Shown here piece by piece: positions 10,643 through 16,058 of a DNA stretch of 16,058 nt. The DNA is from Candidatus Latescibacterota bacterium (lineage in GTDB: Bacteria; JAAXHH01; JACQVL01). How positions within the stretch are numbered: the first letter of the stretch is position 1; each line of letters begins with the position of its first letter. A program made the position numbers and the translations under genes. The DNA lies in the NCBI GenBank assembly GCA_016209865.1, contig JACQVL010000309.1:1-16058 (forward strand). The letters run 5' to 3'. The notes beneath the pieces were generated by a model that worked only from the letters and a program-made list of their open reading frames with translations, did not search any database and was not told the origin of the DNA.

Positions 10643-11062
10643 ATGCTGTTTACTTTACTGGTTCTCTTCTATCTCATCGTGTGCGTGGCGCTGATCCTGG
10701 CCGTGCTGTTGCAGTCGGGCAAAGGACAGGGCATGGCCAGTGCGTTCGGCGGGAGCGCGGTGGCCGGGACGGTATTCGGCGGCCGTGGGGCGGCCACGTT
10801 CTTGAGCAAAGTGACGACCATCTTAGCGATCCTCTTTATGTTGCTCGTCCTGGGGCTGAACCTCGTTCCGTCGAGCAGCCAGGCTCCGAAGAGCGTCATC
10901 CGCGAAGAGGCGCTCAAGACGCAGCAAGAATCGCCCGCGAAAGGGCTCCCGGCGGCGCCATCGGGCGGCAAATCGACCGGACCGGTGACCCCACCCGCAA
11001 AGGCTCAGCCGCAGACCCCGGGGCAGACTCCGCCCCCGGCCTCGACGCCATCGAAGAAATAG
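10643..11062 (+). CDS. secG: Preprotein translocase subunit SecG
   Basis: Accessory subunit of the SecYEG translocon in the inner membrane. The 139 residues hold two membrane segments (about 4-24 and 53-74) around a Gly/Ala-rich loop (LLQSGKGQGMASAFGGS, then a short FGG repeat), which is the SecG signature. The C-terminal 60 or so residues are Pro/Gln/Lys-rich and probably disordered, longer than in E. coli SecG. AGGAG at 10632-10636 overlaps the tpiA stop and lies 6 nt before the ATG. The tpiA-secG order is common in bacteria and supports both calls. Confidence 0.93.
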   Translation: MLFTLLVLFYLIVCVALILAVLLQSGKGQGMASAFGGSAVAGTVFGGRGAATFLSKVTTILAILFMLLVLGLNLVPSSSQAPKSVIREEALKTQQESPAKGLPAAPSGGKSTGPVTPPAKAQPQTPGQTPPPASTPSKK

Positions 11063-11090: not shown

Positions 11091-11175
11091 GCCGAAGTGG
11101 TGGAAGTTGGTAGACACGCTGTCTTGAGGGGGCAGTGGGCGTAAGCCTGTCCGGGTTCGAATCCCGGCTTCGGCA
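11091..11175 (+). tRNA. tRNA-Leu, anticodon GAG
   Basis: A full class II cloverleaf can be drawn. The acceptor GCCGAAG pairs with CTTCGGC, with discriminator A. The D arm is GTG/CAC with GTTGGTAGA in the loop. The anticodon stem is CTGTC/GGCAG with loop TTGAGGG, so GAG is at 11126-11128. The long variable arm is GGGC-GTAA-GCCT, and the T arm is CCGGG-TTCGAAT-CCCGG. CCA is not encoded. It starts 28 nt after secG; a short GC hairpin (GGCGCG/CGCGCC, 11069-11084) lies between them. It probably reads CTC and CTT codons. Its 3' half is the likely integration target of the element to the right. Confidence 0.95.
11152..11175 (+). other. Probable attachment site in the tRNA-Leu 3' end
   Basis: The T arm and acceptor 3' strand of the tRNA border directly on the integrase end of the element. 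This is the usual attB position for tyrosine integrases, where the element restores the tRNA 3' end. I found no second copy of this stretch in the window, so the other att site must lie to the right of 16058. The exact core length cannot be read from one end. Confidence 0.55.
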
Positions 11176-11237
11176 TGCTTGAACAACAAGCCATTAGACT
11201 GATGAGGTGTGAGAGCTTTTGTGTTGCAGAATCGCCC

Positions 11238-11259
11238 ATTGTAGCAGAATTGTAGCAGA
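11238..11259 (+). repeat. Perfect 11-bp tandem repeat next to the attachment site
   Basis: ATTGTAGCAGA occurs twice without a gap (11238-11248, 11249-11259), and a weaker TTGCAGAAT stands at 11224-11232. It lies in the 110-nt gap between the tRNA and the integrase stop, where arm-type integrase or excisionase sites are expected. The binding role is an inference from position. Nothing else is visible in 11176-11285. Confidence 0.6.
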
Positions 11260-11285
11260 TACCCCCGCTCCTTCCTCAGAGCCAC

Positions 11286-12320
11286 TTAAGCGTCCCGGAC
11301 CCCCGGATACAGGGTATTGACCGCCCCCTTCAGATGCTCAGGCGCAAGGTGCGCATACCGCATCGTCGTCTTGATATCCCGATGCCCCAGCAGCTTCTGC
11401 ACGGTCGCCAGATCGACCCCGTTCATCACGAGATGGCTAGCAAACGTATGCCGAAGACTATGGAAGGTCGTATGGGGCAGGCCGGCGCGTTGCACGGCGG
11501 CATCGAAGCTGCCGCGAATGTCGTGCAGCCGGGTGCCATCCGGATTGTGGAACACCGCGGGACTGGTCGGATGGCGCGGGGTGGTGCGCAGGGTCTGCAC
11601 CAACAGGGCATTCATGGGGATGATGCGGGCTTCATAGTTCTTCGTATGCCAGCCATCCTTGTTCCGGACGGCGAGCATCGCGTGGTCGAAATCCACGTCC
11701 GCCCACTGGAGGTAGAAGAGCTCGGATTTACGCAACCCAGTGTTGAGGGCGGTGACCACGAACGGATACAGAAACGCCGGAGCGAACGGGTCGCGACACG
11801 CGATCAAGAGGGCGGTGATCTGGTCCTGCGTGAGATAGTGGACTGGTGGGTCGGGCTCACGGAGCTTCTGAACGGTGACGCACGGATTGGTGCGGACATA
11901 CTGCCACTCCACCGCCTTGCGGAACATGTGCTTCAGCACCTTGAGCTCGGTATTGACCGTCGCCACCTGGACGGCGTTGAGCCGTTCGCTCTTGTAAGTT
12001 TCGACGAGGTCAGCCGTAATCGCCGTCATCTGACGGGTCCCGAAGAACGGGACTAGATGCACGGTCACGGAATACCCGTCTCGGGTCGCCGTGGTGAGGG
12101 CGTTGTTGGTACGGGCGTAGTCCAGATAGCGGGCGGCAAACTCGGCGAAGGTCGCGCGGTGGAGCACCGGACCGAGATGTTCCCCCCGCTCGACCTCCAA
12201 CTTGAGCTTAGCGAGCGCTAGTTCCGCCACCTGCTTATTCCGGGAGACTGGCTTCTGGATCCGCGTGCCATGCCGGGTGTAGGTGATCCACCACGTCGTG
12301 CCTCGCTTGTAGAGCCCCAT
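11286..12320 (-). CDS. int: Site-specific tyrosine recombinase / integrase
   Basis: Catalyses integration and excision of the element at the adjacent tRNA-Leu. It has 344 residues from ATG at 12320; a GTG just before (12323) is in frame, but AAAGGA fits the ATG better. The N-terminus has an arm-binding-like segment (TTWWITYTRHGTRIQK), followed by a SAM-like core-binding domain at about 56-145 and the catalytic domain from about 160. The full catalytic set is present: Arg197 in TGLRKSE, Lys227, His287 and Arg290 in HSLRHTFAS, His313 in LGHRDIKTT and the nucleophile Tyr322 in MRYAHL. The gene reads towards the tRNA and is intact. It is 15 nt downstream of the HTH gene, so probably cotranscribed. 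Confidence 0.96.
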   Translation of the reverse strand: MGLYKRGTTWWITYTRHGTRIQKPVSRNKQVAELALAKLKLEVERGEHLGPVLHRATFAEFAARYLDYARTNNALTTATRDGYSVTVHLVPFFGTRQMTAITADLVETYKSERLNAVQVATVNTELKVLKHMFRKAVEWQYVRTNPCVTVQKLREPDPPVHYLTQDQITALLIACRDPFAPAFLYPFVVTALNTGLRKSELFYLQWADVDFDHAMLAVRNKDGWHTKNYEARIIPMNALLVQTLRTTPRHPTSPAVFHNPDGTRLHDIRGSFDAAVQRAGLPHTTFHSLRHTFASHLVMNGVDLATVQKLLGHRDIKTTMRYAHLAPEHLKGAVNTLYPGVRDA

Positions 12321-12335
12321 CACGCTGTCCTTTCG

Positions 12336-12602
12336 TTAGGACCGGAGAACCTCGTGGAGGACAGTACTGAGGGCGTCCACCGAGACCGCTTCTGTCCGCT
12401 GGTCGGCCAGCCAAGCCTCCAGATCCGTCCGGCGAAAACGCACATGCCGGCCAATCTTCACATGCGGAATCCGCTGCTGGCTGGTCAGTTTGTAGAGATA
12501 GTGTCGCTTCAGCTTGAGCCAAGCACACACGTCATCGATAGTCAGAAACTCATCAAGAGGTAGTCTACGATCCAGGTTGGCGGGTGTCAAGCGATTTCCC
12601 AT
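12336..12602 (-). CDS. Small HTH DNA-binding protein, excisionase/AlpA-like
   Basis: An 88-residue protein with a MerR-type winged helix of the HTH_17/excisionase group. LTIDDVCAWLKLKRHYLYKL (20-39) is helix-turn-helix, then the wing IPHVKIGRHVRFRRTDLEAWLA (45-66). Such proteins act as recombination directionality factors (Xis) or as AlpA-like activators of integrase genes in mobile elements. Its place directly upstream of int fits. GGAG stands 9 nt before the ATG. The start overlaps the stop of the upstream ORF as TAATG, a translational coupling arrangement. Confidence 0.88.
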   Translation of the reverse strand: MGNRLTPANLDRRLPLDEFLTIDDVCAWLKLKRHYLYKLTSQQRIPHVKIGRHVRFRRTDLEAWLADQRTEAVSVDALSTVLHEVLRS

Positions 12603-12983: not shown

Positions 12984-14954
12984 TTATTGCGTGATGGCCT
13001 CGTCAGTGCAGGAGTCACCTCTATCCACATCACACCACGAGTCACCTGGGACACAAGCGGCATCGCTTGCTTCATCTGCCATCTCACAGGTAAGCAGGTG
13101 ATAATAGACCTCCCGACCCTTCTTCTCCTCTCGCTCTACCTCTTTACGCTCGATCAGTTCCTGCAACACTTTGGTTACATTGCTGGAATCGTGCAGACTG
13201 CTCGGTCCGTTAGAGTCCTTGAGAATCTGGGCCAGCTGCGTCGGGGTTGCGCGTCCGTCCAACGTGGAGAGCGCTTCCAGCACGGCCTGTTGCGCCTCTG
13301 TGGTCTGTACCGTCCGGGCATCCCCCAGGGAGAACCAGCAGCACAACCGGGGATCGAATGCGAGCGCGAGTTCGCACTCGAGCACGTCACGCCCGGTGAT
13401 TTCAAGGGTCGCCGCTCCAGTCTTGCGTTCACGATTCAAGCCCCACACCACATCGGCCACCGCGGTTTTCCCCGTTGAGCCTAAAGGGTCATCCACGACA
13501 TCCTTCGCGACCCCTTTCCGTTTATGATCAACAATCACGATCGCACATCCCTTCTCTAAGGCTACGCGTTGCAGCGGCGTCAGGACTTGCGTCACTATCC
13601 CCACATCGTTCTGTTCGACCCCGGGGAACATTCTCGAGAGGGTATCGACAATAAGGAGTCGAGGCCGTTGATCGTGGATAAGTTGGGTGAGATACTGAAG
13701 GCCATAGGGATCATCGTGGGTGCGGAATAACTCGGTCCCAAATCGCACCGGCAACCCCGGTTCCCAGTGCTGATCGTGCATGCGCTTCTGCAGGCGTTGC
13801 GGATGATCCTCTAAGGCAAAGTACCACGCAGCCCCCGGGGGGACATCCACATCCAGAAACTTCCCACCGGCCCCGACGGCCTGGGCCAGTTGAAGCATCA
13901 TCCAGCTTTTCCCAACCTTCGGACGCCCGGCGAGGATCGTCAGACCCACGGGAAGCAGGCCAGGAACGATCCACAAGGGTTCGGGAAATGGCGCCTCCAG
14001 GAGTTCATCCGCCGTCCACACGGGTGGGCGCACGAAGACAGGAGCAAGTCCGTCAGCCGTGGCGGAGGTGATAGTGATGGGTAGCCCGTCATCAGAAGGG
14101 GTCAGGTGTAACCAGGCAGCCACTTTCGCGACCACGTCGCCCCCCACGAGCTCGGCGAACGTGGGAAGGCCCGTGACGGGAATCCCCTGAGCCATTCGCT
14201 GCGGCGTATGGAAGCCTTGCTCAGCCCGCTTCTCTGCCTCCTCATCTCCGGCGATTTCGGCCACAGTGCGGATGAACCACGTGATGTCCGGCTCTGACCA
14301 ACCGGCCTGCTTCAAGGCCCCGGCTAACGCCATCGCACAGACGTCCCGACTCCCTGGGGACGGCCAATGGCGTGCCAGGAGCACGCACGCGGCCATGTGT
14401 TCAAGGGCATTGAGCAAAATCGCGGCATCGACCCGAGCGGGGTGTCCTTTGGCGTCCCAGGTGTAGCGTTCTCCGCTCGGGTGCTCACTGGGGGGTACCA
14501 GCGTTTGCATCGGCGTCTTCTGCTGGCTCAGGCCACGCAGTTCGACGAGCATGGTGCCGTCGATATCCCGAAACTGGATAGTAACCAGACCAGAGGGGAC
14601 CTGATACCACCAATGGGAGCGTGGTTTCCCAGGTCGTCCGTGGATCATGTCTGTGGGGGGTAGAAACCATGGAGCGGCGTTGATAGCTTCAGGAACATCA
14701 CAATCGATATCGCCTAACTCACTCTCCGGGACTCCGAGGAGCAATCCGATATTTCCGCCGTGGCCGTAATACTGCGGGAGTTCAGTCTCGGTCAGGCGCA
14801 GATCCGGCCATCCCGTGAGAGTGGGCCCTTTCGCTCCCTTCAGAGAGGGGACGGAGAGATACCCCCGCTTGTGGTAGGCGCGGGCGGCAATTAAGGTGTC
14901 GGACTCTGCCATCGATGCGTCTGGGTGTATCAGCCTGCCATTGTCCTTACGCAT
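12984..14954 (-). CDS. Primase-polymerase / RecA-like ATPase fusion (replication protein)
   Basis: Probable replication initiator of the element. ATG 14954 has GGGAGG 8 nt upstream and overlaps the previous gene by 8 nt; the longer frame back to 15077 is unlikely. Of 656 residues, about 15-190 resemble a bifunctional primase/polymerase (AEP) domain: the acidic pair in GDIDCD (81-86), RPGKPRSHWWYQVP around His114, and VELRGLSQQKTPMQTLVPPSEHPSG (138-161). Residues 325-530 form a RepA/AAA_25-type RecA ATPase with Walker A GRPKVGKS (343-350), Walker B RLLIVDTLSRM (432-442) and DHKRKG (476-481). The end (550-622) looks like a winged helix for DNA binding. Families are recognised by eye. This architecture occurs in plasmids, phages and satellites. 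Confidence 0.88.
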   Translation of the reverse strand: MRKDNGRLIHPDASMAESDTLIAARAYHKRGYLSVPSLKGAKGPTLTGWPDLRLTETELPQYYGHGGNIGLLLGVPESELGDIDCDVPEAINAAPWFLPPTDMIHGRPGKPRSHWWYQVPSGLVTIQFRDIDGTMLVELRGLSQQKTPMQTLVPPSEHPSGERYTWDAKGHPARVDAAILLNALEHMAACVLLARHWPSPGSRDVCAMALAGALKQAGWSEPDITWFIRTVAEIAGDEEAEKRAEQGFHTPQRMAQGIPVTGLPTFAELVGGDVVAKVAAWLHLTPSDDGLPITITSATADGLAPVFVRPPVWTADELLEAPFPEPLWIVPGLLPVGLTILAGRPKVGKSWMMLQLAQAVGAGGKFLDVDVPPGAAWYFALEDHPQRLQKRMHDQHWEPGLPVRFGTELFRTHDDPYGLQYLTQLIHDQRPRLLIVDTLSRMFPGVEQNDVGIVTQVLTPLQRVALEKGCAIVIVDHKRKGVAKDVVDDPLGSTGKTAVADVVWGLNRERKTGAATLEITGRDVLECELALAFDPRLCCWFSLGDARTVQTTEAQQAVLEALSTLDGRATPTQLAQILKDSNGPSSLHDSSNVTKVLQELIERKEVEREEKKGREVYYHLLTCEMADEASDAACVPGDSWCDVDRGDSCTDEAITQ

Positions 14955-15276
14955 CGGTCTTGCCTCCCTGCTGGATGCGCAAGCGCCGGTACTCGGCCTG
15001 GGCCAGTTGGACGAGGCGGGGTTTCGCGTCCGGGGGGAAGACGCAGAGGGGGAAGTACCGGAGACGCCCCCTCTCATCGGTATAGGTGTCGGCGGGCGGG
15101 CTCACCCACGGGGTACGCCCGTCACCAGTAGAGATGTATCGGCATCGCCGGATGAGCACAGAGTTGATCGACACATCGAGCTGCATGCGGAATGCCCCAC
15201 AGTCAAACACAAGTCGAGAAGCACCCGGCACGAGCAGTACAGCGGTGGTCGCGCCGACGGGGGGATTCGGGAGCAT
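14947..15276 (-). CDS. Small conserved-looking protein, possibly SpoVG-like
   Basis: 109 residues from ATG 15276, chosen because GAGGAG stands 6 nt upstream; the frame is open to 15393 without such a site. The second half (DGRTPWVSPP, a charged turn TDERGRLRYFPL, then VFPPDAKPRLVQLAQAEYRRL) has the same order as SpoVG: a strand, VxxPxxxxxDGxxxDIxxPI and a final helix with EYxRL. SpoVG proteins bind nucleic acid, and relatives occur in mobile elements. The likeness is only by eye and not secure. It overlaps the replicase start by 8 nt, so the two are translated together. Confidence 0.7.
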   Translation of the reverse strand: MLPNPPVGATTAVLLVPGASRLVFDCGAFRMQLDVSINSVLIRRCRYISTGDGRTPWVSPPADTYTDERGRLRYFPLCVFPPDAKPRLVQLAQAEYRRLRIQQGGKTDA

Positions 15277-15298
15277 AGTGGTCTCCTCACAAAGAAGA

Positions 15299-15338
15299 CG
15301 GCGTGTTCGCAGTGGTCGTGGACACCGCAAACACGCCG
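15299..15338 (-). promoter_or_regulatory. Attenuator-like hairpin in the leader of the replication genes
   Basis: The arms CGGCGTGTTCGC (15299-15310) and GCAAACACGCCG (15327-15338) pair with one mismatch around a 16-nt loop. On the minus strand, the direction of the replication genes, the hairpin is followed by TCTTCTTTGTG and then at once by the GAGGAG ribosome site of the 15276 gene. It thus looks like an intrinsic terminator placed in a leader. The loop contains GTGGACACC (plus strand 15318-15326), also present in the operator cluster at 15523-15531. Termination in vivo is an inference; the T tract is short and broken. Confidence 0.5.
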
Positions 15339-15431
15339 ACGTTGCACCAGCATACCAGCGGACGCCATGACCCGGCCATCGGGAGGCCATCACAACGAAC
15401 AGGCAGCGTCCACCGTGTTGTCGCCTGCGTC

Positions 15432-15466
15432 ATCACGGGATTCAGGGACAAGACGTGATTCCCGTG
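15432..15466. promoter_or_regulatory. Two mutually exclusive stems in the replication leader
   Basis: ATCACG (15432-15437) can pair with CGTGAT (15454-15459), and CACGGGA (15434-15440) can pair with TCCCGTG (15460-15466). The left arms share CACG, so only one stem can form at a time. Such alternative pairing is what an antisense-controlled leader would use. The stems are only 6 and 7 bp, so chance cannot be ruled out. Confidence 0.35.
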
Positions 15467-15475
15467 GATTTGCTC

Positions 15476-15503
15476 TTGACAAAGGCCGGTGGTCATGTAC
15501 ACT
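15476..15503 (+). promoter_or_regulatory. Sigma-70-type promoter facing right
   Basis: A perfect -35 TTGACA (15476-15481) is followed after 16 nt by TACACT (15498-15503); CACTAT at 18 nt is an alternative -10. The start would be near 15510. No plus-strand gene follows: the next coding sequence is antisense, and a terminator hairpin stands about 50 nt on. The same stretch carries TATAGT on the minus strand (rc of 15501-15506) with only a poor -35, so a weak leftward promoter could overlap. Confidence 0.65.
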
Positions 15504-15531
15504 ATAGAGTGTCCGCCCTGTAGTGGACACC
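15499..15531. promoter_or_regulatory. Operator-like cluster of inverted half-sites over the promoter
   Basis: ACACT (15499-15503), AGTGTCC (15508-15514) and GGACAC (15525-15530) form two overlapping inverted repeats, spaced 4 and 10 nt, that share the middle half-site. They cover the -10 and the predicted start of the rightward promoter, where a repressor would block it. A further GTGGACACC copy lies at 15318-15326. The RHH protein encoded at 15633-15926 is the obvious candidate binder. This is an inference from proximity. Confidence 0.5.
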
Positions 15532-15597
15532 TGCCGTTCATTTGTGACGGCCGGTTGCACGGCCCAGTTGTTCCAGCAACTGGGCCGTTGCTCTTTA
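15510..15597 (+). ncRNA. Candidate antisense RNA of about 88 nt
   Basis: Bounded by the predicted start after the TTGACA promoter and by the terminator hairpin. It contains no credible ORF with a ribosome site. Two stems can be drawn: GCCGT/ACGGC (15533-15537 with 15547-15551, 9-nt loop) and the 12-bp terminator stem. Any minus-strand message running from the RHH gene into the replication genes would be fully complementary to it. Size, strong promoter and stem-loops match plasmid countertranscript RNAs, but expression is untested. Confidence 0.45.
15557..15597 (+). terminator. Rho-independent terminator, rightward
   Basis: ACGGCCCAGTTG (15559-15570) pairs perfectly with the CAACTGGGCCG arm (15577-15587 plus the next T) around the loop TTCCAG. 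It is followed on the plus strand by TTGCTCTTTATA. GCA at 15557-15559 can lengthen the stem with TGC at 15589-15591 through a one-base bulge. On the minus strand the hairpin is followed by GCAACC, without a T run, so it should not stop leftward transcription efficiently. Confidence 0.75.
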
Positions 15598-15632
15598 TAC
15601 CGGAGGGGGCGCTCGAGTTCCGCTCATAGGTC

Positions 15633-15926
15633 TCACCTCTTATGTTTCTCGGCTAAAGCTTCCGGTATCCGTCCCGACCTCAATACGTTTTTCTCTTCCT
15701 CACTAAGCTGCACCTTTTGTAGAAAACTCGCCTGCTCTGCCCATCTATTGTTAAAGGCTTCAATCGCGGCCAGAATATACTCTGTGAACGACTTGTACCC
15801 CAGACGTGCTGCCCATTCCTCCGCGACGCGCTTGTCCGCCTCCGAGGGGAACCGTAAGGGAAAGTTCGATGGTGTCGTCGGGCCTTCATCTGTGAGGACA
15901 ATCTCATCCTCGCTGAAATGCTTCAA
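15633..15926 (-). CDS. Ribbon-helix-helix DNA-binding protein (putative repressor)
   Basis: The central part fits a MetJ/Arc/CopG-type fold: strand NFPLRFP (about 21-27), helix SEADKRVAEEWAARLG, turn YKS, then helix FTEYILAAIEAFNNRW (47-62). A charged helical tail (LSEEEKNVLRSG and following) may mediate contacts with itself or a partner. The start is uncertain: TTG at 15926 (97 residues) has AAGGA 7 nt upstream, and the only in-frame ATG (16043) would cross the palindrome. The region is visibly less GC-rich than its neighbours, a sign of different ancestry. It sits upstream of the replication genes and beside the operator-like cluster, so a copy-number or maintenance regulator is plausible; an antitoxin is the alternative. 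Confidence 0.65.
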   Translation of the reverse strand: MKHFSEDEIVLTDEGPTTPSNFPLRFPSEADKRVAEEWAARLGYKSFTEYILAAIEAFNNRWAEQASFLQKVQLSEEEKNVLRSGRIPEALAEKHKR

Positions 15927-15960
15927 AGATCCTTCCTTATAATGCGAATTAAGAGTTGCC

Positions 15961-16036
15961 GTCCATCGGCTCCTTGTATGTTTTAGAGACGAGGCCAATC
16001 GTTTCCTAAAACAGCGACAAGGAGGACCCGATGGAC
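15961..16036. repeat. 76-nt imperfect palindrome with mirrored ribosome site and ATGGAC
   Basis: The left arm (15961-15986) and the reverse complement of the right arm (16006-16036) share GTCCATCGG, CTCCTTGT and TGTTTTAG in the same order, 25 identical bases. They differ only by 3-nt and 1-to-3-nt insertions. The inner part continues as AGACGA against GAAACGA. As a result both strands read ACAAGGAG, a short spacer, CCGATGGAC: on the plus strand this starts the gene at 16031, on the minus strand an ATG at 15966 that stops after five codons. Confidence 0.8.
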
Positions 16037-16058
16037 TGGCCATACCAGTTAGTCCACC
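16031..16058 (+). CDS. Start of an unidentified rightward gene, cut by the window edge
   Basis: ATG at 16031 follows AAGGAGGA (16019-16026) with near-ideal spacing. Only nine codons are visible (MDWPYQLVH), too few to name it. It is divergent from the RHH gene, with the start region embedded in the palindrome at 15961-16036, so the palindrome could act as its operator or as a translational hairpin. Confidence 0.5.

Follow-up and report, generated by a model that had tools for sequence, protein, structure and literature searches.

A predicted antisense RNA opposite the replicase leader of a tRNA-Leu-integrated element, and its possible part in replication control

Background

Control of copy number by antisense RNA is a textbook mechanism of plasmids, and the locus analyzed here raises the question of whether an element integrated in a chromosome could be controlled in the same way. 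The locus lies in a window of 16,058 bp, which is an entire contig (C241) of a 3.75 Mb genome in 356 contigs. The original prediction, made from this window, was of a plasmid-type copy-number control module in which the gene of a ribbon-helix-helix (RHH) protein, a short convergent RNA and a leader with alternative stems precede the replication genes.

Results and Discussion

Up to position 11062 the window carries mreB/C/D, mrdA, rodA, lgt, pfk, tpiA and secG among its genes, as read from translations, and we take this part to be chromosomal. Beyond it lies a tRNA-Leu gene, followed on the minus strand by genes for a tyrosine integrase, an HTH protein and a Prim-Pol/AAA_25 replicase, a 109-aa ORF, a gap of 356 nt and a 97-aa ORF (Table 1). 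Two attachment sites with identity to the 3' end of the tRNA were found, attL in the window and attR on contig C312, and the integrase adjoins one of them. Since the 59-bp core and the 21-bp repeat occur on both contigs, the element is integrated site-specifically and its far end is known, which bears out the tRNA-integrated element of the original prediction. The stretch of the element from window position 16058 to the start of C312 is missing. The 21-bp repeat, built from two GTAGCAGA copies beside both attL and attR, is likely to be an integrase arm site. At the right end of the element, left of attR (C312, 360-2249), there are a UPF0175/DUF3368 pair and a nucleotidyltransferase/HEPN pair, both of toxin-antitoxin types. 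The AlpA-like HTH protein scored 51 bits against the MADS1 antiphage HTH model, under the cut-off of 80 for that model.

Table 1. Features of the integrated element and its replicase leader in the window
Feature	Position	Strand	Basis or remark
tRNA-Leu (GAG), integration target	11091-11175	+	ARAGORN
59-bp attL core; attR at C312:2424-2482 has the identical sequence	11119-11177	+	Genome search with the tRNA 3' region
21-bp repeat TGTAGCAGAATTGTAGCAGAT; second copy beside attR at C312:2277-2297	11240-11260	+	
Tyrosine integrase	11286-12320	-	PF00589, 2e-34
AlpA/excisionase-like HTH protein	12336-12602	-	HTH_17 8e-16; excise TIGR01764 7e-15
Prim-Pol/AAA_25 (RecA-type) replicase (P0001)	12984-14954	-	AAA_25 2.6e-28, Prim-Pol 3.4e-8
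Small ORF (P0002), 109 aa, overlapping the replicase start, SD GAGGAG	14947-15276	-	
Attenuator-like hairpin (t:T), 16 pairs, then TCTTCTTTGT	15299-15338	-	Directly before the small-ORF SD
Possible antiterminator hairpin (C:t), -25.9 kcal/mol	15314-15372	-	Not above chance
Segment B of the leader, complementary to A, imperfect copy of part of the predicted antisense RNA	15385-15414	-	Alignment, folding
Antisense RNA promoter (predicted), TTGACA-16-TACACT	15476-15503	+	Consensus scan; TTGACA 15476-15481, TACACT 15498-15503
Predicted antisense RNA, about 88 nt, three stem-loops, ends predicted	15511-15598	+	Folding
Segment A of the replicase leader, predicted antisense RNA target, partner of B	15522-15552	-	Folding, shuffles
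Antisense RNA terminator (predicted), 13-pair stem, then TGCTCTTTAT	15559-15588	+	Consensus scan
Probable ribbon-helix-helix protein (P0003), 97 aa, TTG start after AAGGAAGG	15633-15926	-	Sequence pattern, weak fold matches

All genes of the element between and including those of the integrase and the RHH protein are oriented leftward. A unit that runs rightward and stops in the intergenic region therefore calls for an explanation. Its promoter matches the consensus at 10 of 12 positions and has the second highest plus-strand score in the 16-kb window, and the stem of its terminator is followed by a T-rich tail on the rightward strand alone. The predicted RNA between them folds into its three stem-loops with -48 kcal/mol (z -6.7 against shuffles). 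Over 15480-15599 the z score was -7.0 for the plus strand and -4.4 for the minus strand, indicating that the plus strand is the better folded. As a control, the 356-nt intergenic region was shuffled 1000 times with its dinucleotide composition kept, and promoters of at least 10/12 followed by a terminator of at least 12 bp were counted. On neither strand did any shuffle yield a unit as strong as this, and five shuffles contained one under far looser criteria. At the level of sequence, the promoter, structured RNA and terminator of an antisense RNA gene are thus present opposite the replicase leader. The parts of the short convergent RNA with its own TTGACA promoter and terminator were confirmed to be there beyond chance, the RNA itself being predicted. 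No meaningful Rfam match was found for the locus at gathering or lenient thresholds.

The leader on the opposite strand contains the hairpin that the original prediction had called attenuator-like. It has a free energy of -28.3 kcal/mol, which none of 1000 shuffles equaled, and its T-rich tail (hairpin and tail 15338-15289) is closely followed by GAGGAG and the ATG at 15276. It therefore has the form and place of an intrinsic terminator in a leader before a rep operon, as in pT181 and pIP501. The strongest alternative stem is the long-range complementarity of A and B (15552-15522 with 15414-15385; 29 pairs), which was also reached in none of 1000 shuffles. Since A is the complement of the predicted antisense RNA and can pair with B, B is an imperfect copy of that RNA. 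The stem B:C (15418-15390 with 15384-15354) was borderline, being matched in about 3-4% of shuffles, and the antiterminator stem C:t (15372-15345 with 15341-15314) was no better than chance (34% of shuffles). A:B, B:C and C:t do stand in the order required for a classical attenuation cascade, so that of the predicted leader with alternative stems the long-range part held up well and the antiterminator part did not. In equilibrium folding the terminator was favored with and without the antisense RNA and no switch was seen. The outcome of a rough simulation of cotranscriptional folding varied with the barrier chosen, showed no switch consistently and counts neither for nor against one. Attenuation of the pIP501 kind at this leader is thus possible and not demonstrated even on paper, given the chance-level C:t, the borderline B:C, a terminator that wins in both equilibrium states and a kinetic simulation without consistent outcome. 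Through a 12-nt repeat (15315-15326 and 15520-15531, 11 of 12 positions identical, about 0.1 expected by chance on a rough estimate), the attenuator hairpin also contains a second short sequence that matches the target of the predicted antisense RNA.

Downstream of the hairpin, the stop codon of the small ORF overlaps the replicase ATG at 14954 (ATGCGTAA), and a replicase SD, GGGAGG, lies upstream. The overlap and this SD make translational coupling of the two genes likely. There is accordingly a small ORF of the R1 type downstream of the predicted antisense target, with its overlap and its own SD seen and the coupling probable. No relatives of P0002 were found in IMG/VR, GTDB contigs or family searches, and its structure model was of low confidence (pLDDT 45).

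The gene upstream of the leader was expected to encode an RHH protein. An ORF is present at that place, and its product, P0003, had no Pfam, NCBIfam or significant PHROGs match and no relatives in IMG/VR or GTDB contigs. A single-sequence model had a mean pLDDT of 72, reaching 91 in the block of residues 31-40, with a beta-alpha-alpha order. Its best structural neighbors, AtaR, KacA, TacA2, PutA and ParD-type RHH proteins, were weak matches with Z up to 3.9, and the weak matches were mostly RHH proteins. The pattern NFPLRFPSEADKRVAEEWAARLGYKSFTEYILAAIEAF, the order of elements in the model and these neighbors make P0003 likely to be an RHH protein. This part of the original prediction was retained as a weak assignment.

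The replicase and the non-coding region were compared with other sequences. Plasmid pATHE01 of Caldicellulosiruptor bescii, which has a CopG-family gene upstream of its replicase, encodes the closest full-length relative of P0001 (33% identity over 86% of the length). Unlike the element described here, pATHE01 is a free plasmid, and an antisense promoter-terminator unit upstream of its replicase was not found. Against IMG/VR and GTDB contigs the best identity of P0001 was 44%, in the AAA domain, and one IMG/VR contig (L049) has the same order of RHH_1 gene, small ORF and AAA_25 replicase. Of 84 related replicases, 8 are preceded within 1.2 kb by a promoter-terminator unit in antisense orientation (shuffled mean 1.9), and 4 by a unit on the sense strand. 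The clearest antisense unit is in an Acidothermus MAG (L033, 960-1120), between an HTH gene and a related replicase, with a TTGAAA/TATAGT promoter and two hairpins, the second of them terminator-like. These counts hint that such units are a wider habit of related replicases. Antisense units in relatives such as L019 may be ordinary two-way gene terminators. When the non-coding region itself was compared with the 16 genomes of the phylum, the matches were short and chance-like, the best having E 0.001 over 39 nt, and its degenerate core pattern had zero matches in IMG/VR.

Among the systems compared, the order of parts matches plasmid R1 best. In R1 (IncFII) the order is copB, antisense copA, translation-coupled tap and repA (PMC5717011). 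The locus likewise has a putative repressor gene, a predicted antisense RNA in the intergenic leader, a small ORF probably coupled to the rep gene and the rep gene itself. It differs from R1 in having a Prim-Pol/AAA_25 replicase instead of RepA, a probable RHH protein instead of CopB and a strong terminator-like hairpin before the small ORF, and in belonging to a chromosomally integrated element. In pIP501 (Inc18) CopR is present and RNAIII causes attenuation of repR (PMC4981023). The likeness there is a small repressor with an antisense RNA, both putative here, over a leader that has a terminator-like hairpin before the rep gene; on the other hand, the antiterminator is at chance here, the coupled small ORF is extra and CopR may be unrelated to P0003. 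The gene of the RHH-type repressor CopG of pMV158 lies upstream of rep and co-directional with it, with antisense RNAII between them (PMC5717011, PMC4485353). The locus shares with it a repressor gene, here of probable RHH type, and an antisense RNA, here predicted, before rep, but RepB of pMV158 is a rolling-circle initiator, and RNAII acts directly to inhibit the translation of repB. The small ORF that overlaps the replicase start, placed after the RNA and before the replicase, brings the order nearer to R1 than to pMV158. The plasmid-type module of the original prediction thus agrees with the locus in its parts, order and tRNA integration, with R1 as the nearer model and without an antiterminator above chance.

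Control of this kind over a Prim-Pol/RecA-type replicase had been expected to be unusual, which proved only partly right, since on pSYSA of Synechocystis a primase-helicase Rep is found beside an abundant antisense RNA with three stem-loops (ssr7036/asRNA1/CyRepA1; PMC9978351). Both replicons have a Rep with primase and helicase domains, an upstream small ORF, a three-stem-loop antisense RNA (predicted here) and toxin-antitoxin pairs. However, asRNA1 lies within the small ORF, its mechanism has been compared to ColE1 priming and pSYSA is an extrachromosomal plasmid (PMC9978351). The novel points are that an integrated element combines these parts and that the predicted antisense RNA is imperfectly copied in cis.

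On balance, the locus probably serves to control the replicase operon of the integrated element through a countertranscript, the predicted antisense RNA. This reading is supported by a promoter and strong terminator that oppose all neighboring genes and were not reproduced by shuffling, by the better folding of the plus strand, by the equally unmatched A:B stem and hairpin, the latter directly before the SD, by the overlap of small ORF and replicase and by the R1-like order. The RHH genes upstream of AAA_25 replicases in pATHE01 and L049 and the excess of antisense units among related replicases point the same way. Against it stand the lack of a convincing leftward promoter right of the RNA, a terminator that forms regardless of the RNA, a C:t stem at chance, the orphan status of the RHH protein and the small ORF, a non-coding region with no relatives among the sequences searched and no Rfam family.

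From the parts, their non-random nature and the integration site we infer how such a module could act. An RNA of about 88 nt would be made rightward from the promoter at 15476 and end at 15598. The replicase message would run leftward through the target of this RNA into the small ORF and the coupled replicase; the simplest assumption is that it starts within the RHH gene or upstream of it, which would also be the simplest way to give A:B a meaning. With many copies of the element the short RNA would be abundant and pair with segment A, and less replicase would be synthesized, either because termination at the hairpin 15338-15299 is favored or because translation of the small ORF coupled to the replicase is hindered. 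In an attenuation cascade, A:B pairing would let C block the terminator, and the RNA bound to A would free B to take C, so that the terminator forms. Segment B would be an in-cis imitation of the antisense RNA competing with it for A, and the RHH protein would likely be a second, transcriptional repressor. That a cis mimic and a trans-acting antisense RNA compete for one target and so set the reading of the replicase, a distinct attenuator design in an integrated replicon, is a tentative and rather doubtful proposal.

A promoter scan of the region detected no leftward promoter of good quality to the right of the predicted antisense RNA. The best-scoring leftward candidate, GTGTCC-18-TATAGT (15530/15506-15501, score 7.2), coincides in part with the rightward promoter. 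A message initiated there would begin at about 15494, left of any overlap with the antisense RNA, so that the no-overlap case, which the original prediction gave as one of its refutations, may apply. The locus could then be a pair of divergent promoters with an operator, the RHH protein binding the GTGTCC...GGACAC inverted repeats, which we consider unlikely; in that case the short RNA, with no message to overlap, would act in trans or be an aborted divergent transcript, an equally unlikely outcome. The two -10 boxes do share the palindrome ACACTATAGAGTGT and are adjoined by the GTGTCC/GGACAC inverted repeat, and the leftward score is the best of the region. Background hits in the rest of the window, however, score as well as this candidate, and divergent promoters would give no function to the A:B complementarity or to the strong terminator at 15588.

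A control like that of satellite phage P4 would place the pairing in one transcript. P4 integrates in a tRNA-Leu gene and has a primase-type replicase and a leader with complementary segments and a terminator, and its CI RNA, read from that leader in the direction of the replicase, terminates transcription early. By analogy, a processed leader RNA with B could act in trans on A of new transcripts and cause early termination at 15299, which seems quite improbable, and the rightward RNA would be, with no better prospects, a second source of the same pairing sequence. The tRNA-Leu integration, the excisionase-like HTH protein, the primase-type replicase and the presence of A and B in one leader with a terminator after them all recall P4. 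Yet the strongest and only complete RNA gene of the locus has a promoter and terminator of its own and is read from the other strand, an arrangement that P4 is not known to have, and there is a single complementary pair here, whereas P4 has two targets; a match to an Rfam family is also absent. The inverted repeats might instead be DNA-level parts of an origin, as sites for the replicase or the RHH protein, with the hairpin at 15559-15588 only insulating the RHH gene from rightward transcription. Many inverted repeats do lie upstream of the replicase, from 15299 to 15588, but they are not iterated like iterons, and an RNA gene needs just such a stem, with a T-run on one strand only, downstream of a near-consensus promoter on that strand. 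This explanation, too, is quite improbable.

If countertranscript control is confirmed, an integrated element of a little-studied bacterial lineage would keep plasmid-style replication control inside a tRNA gene. That would suggest that the element replicates autonomously for a time once excised, and would connect plasmids, in a testable way, to tRNA-integrated Prim-Pol elements.

To the right of the RHH gene, a rightward ORF (ATG 16031) extends past the end of the contig. A very strong hairpin (15961-16036, z -7.5) lies ahead of it and contains AGGAGG and the start codon of this ORF in its 3' arm. The hairpin might mask the ribosome site, or it might matter as an inverted repeat in the DNA where two genes diverge. 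A possible promoter element for the ORF is a TATAAT at 15938.
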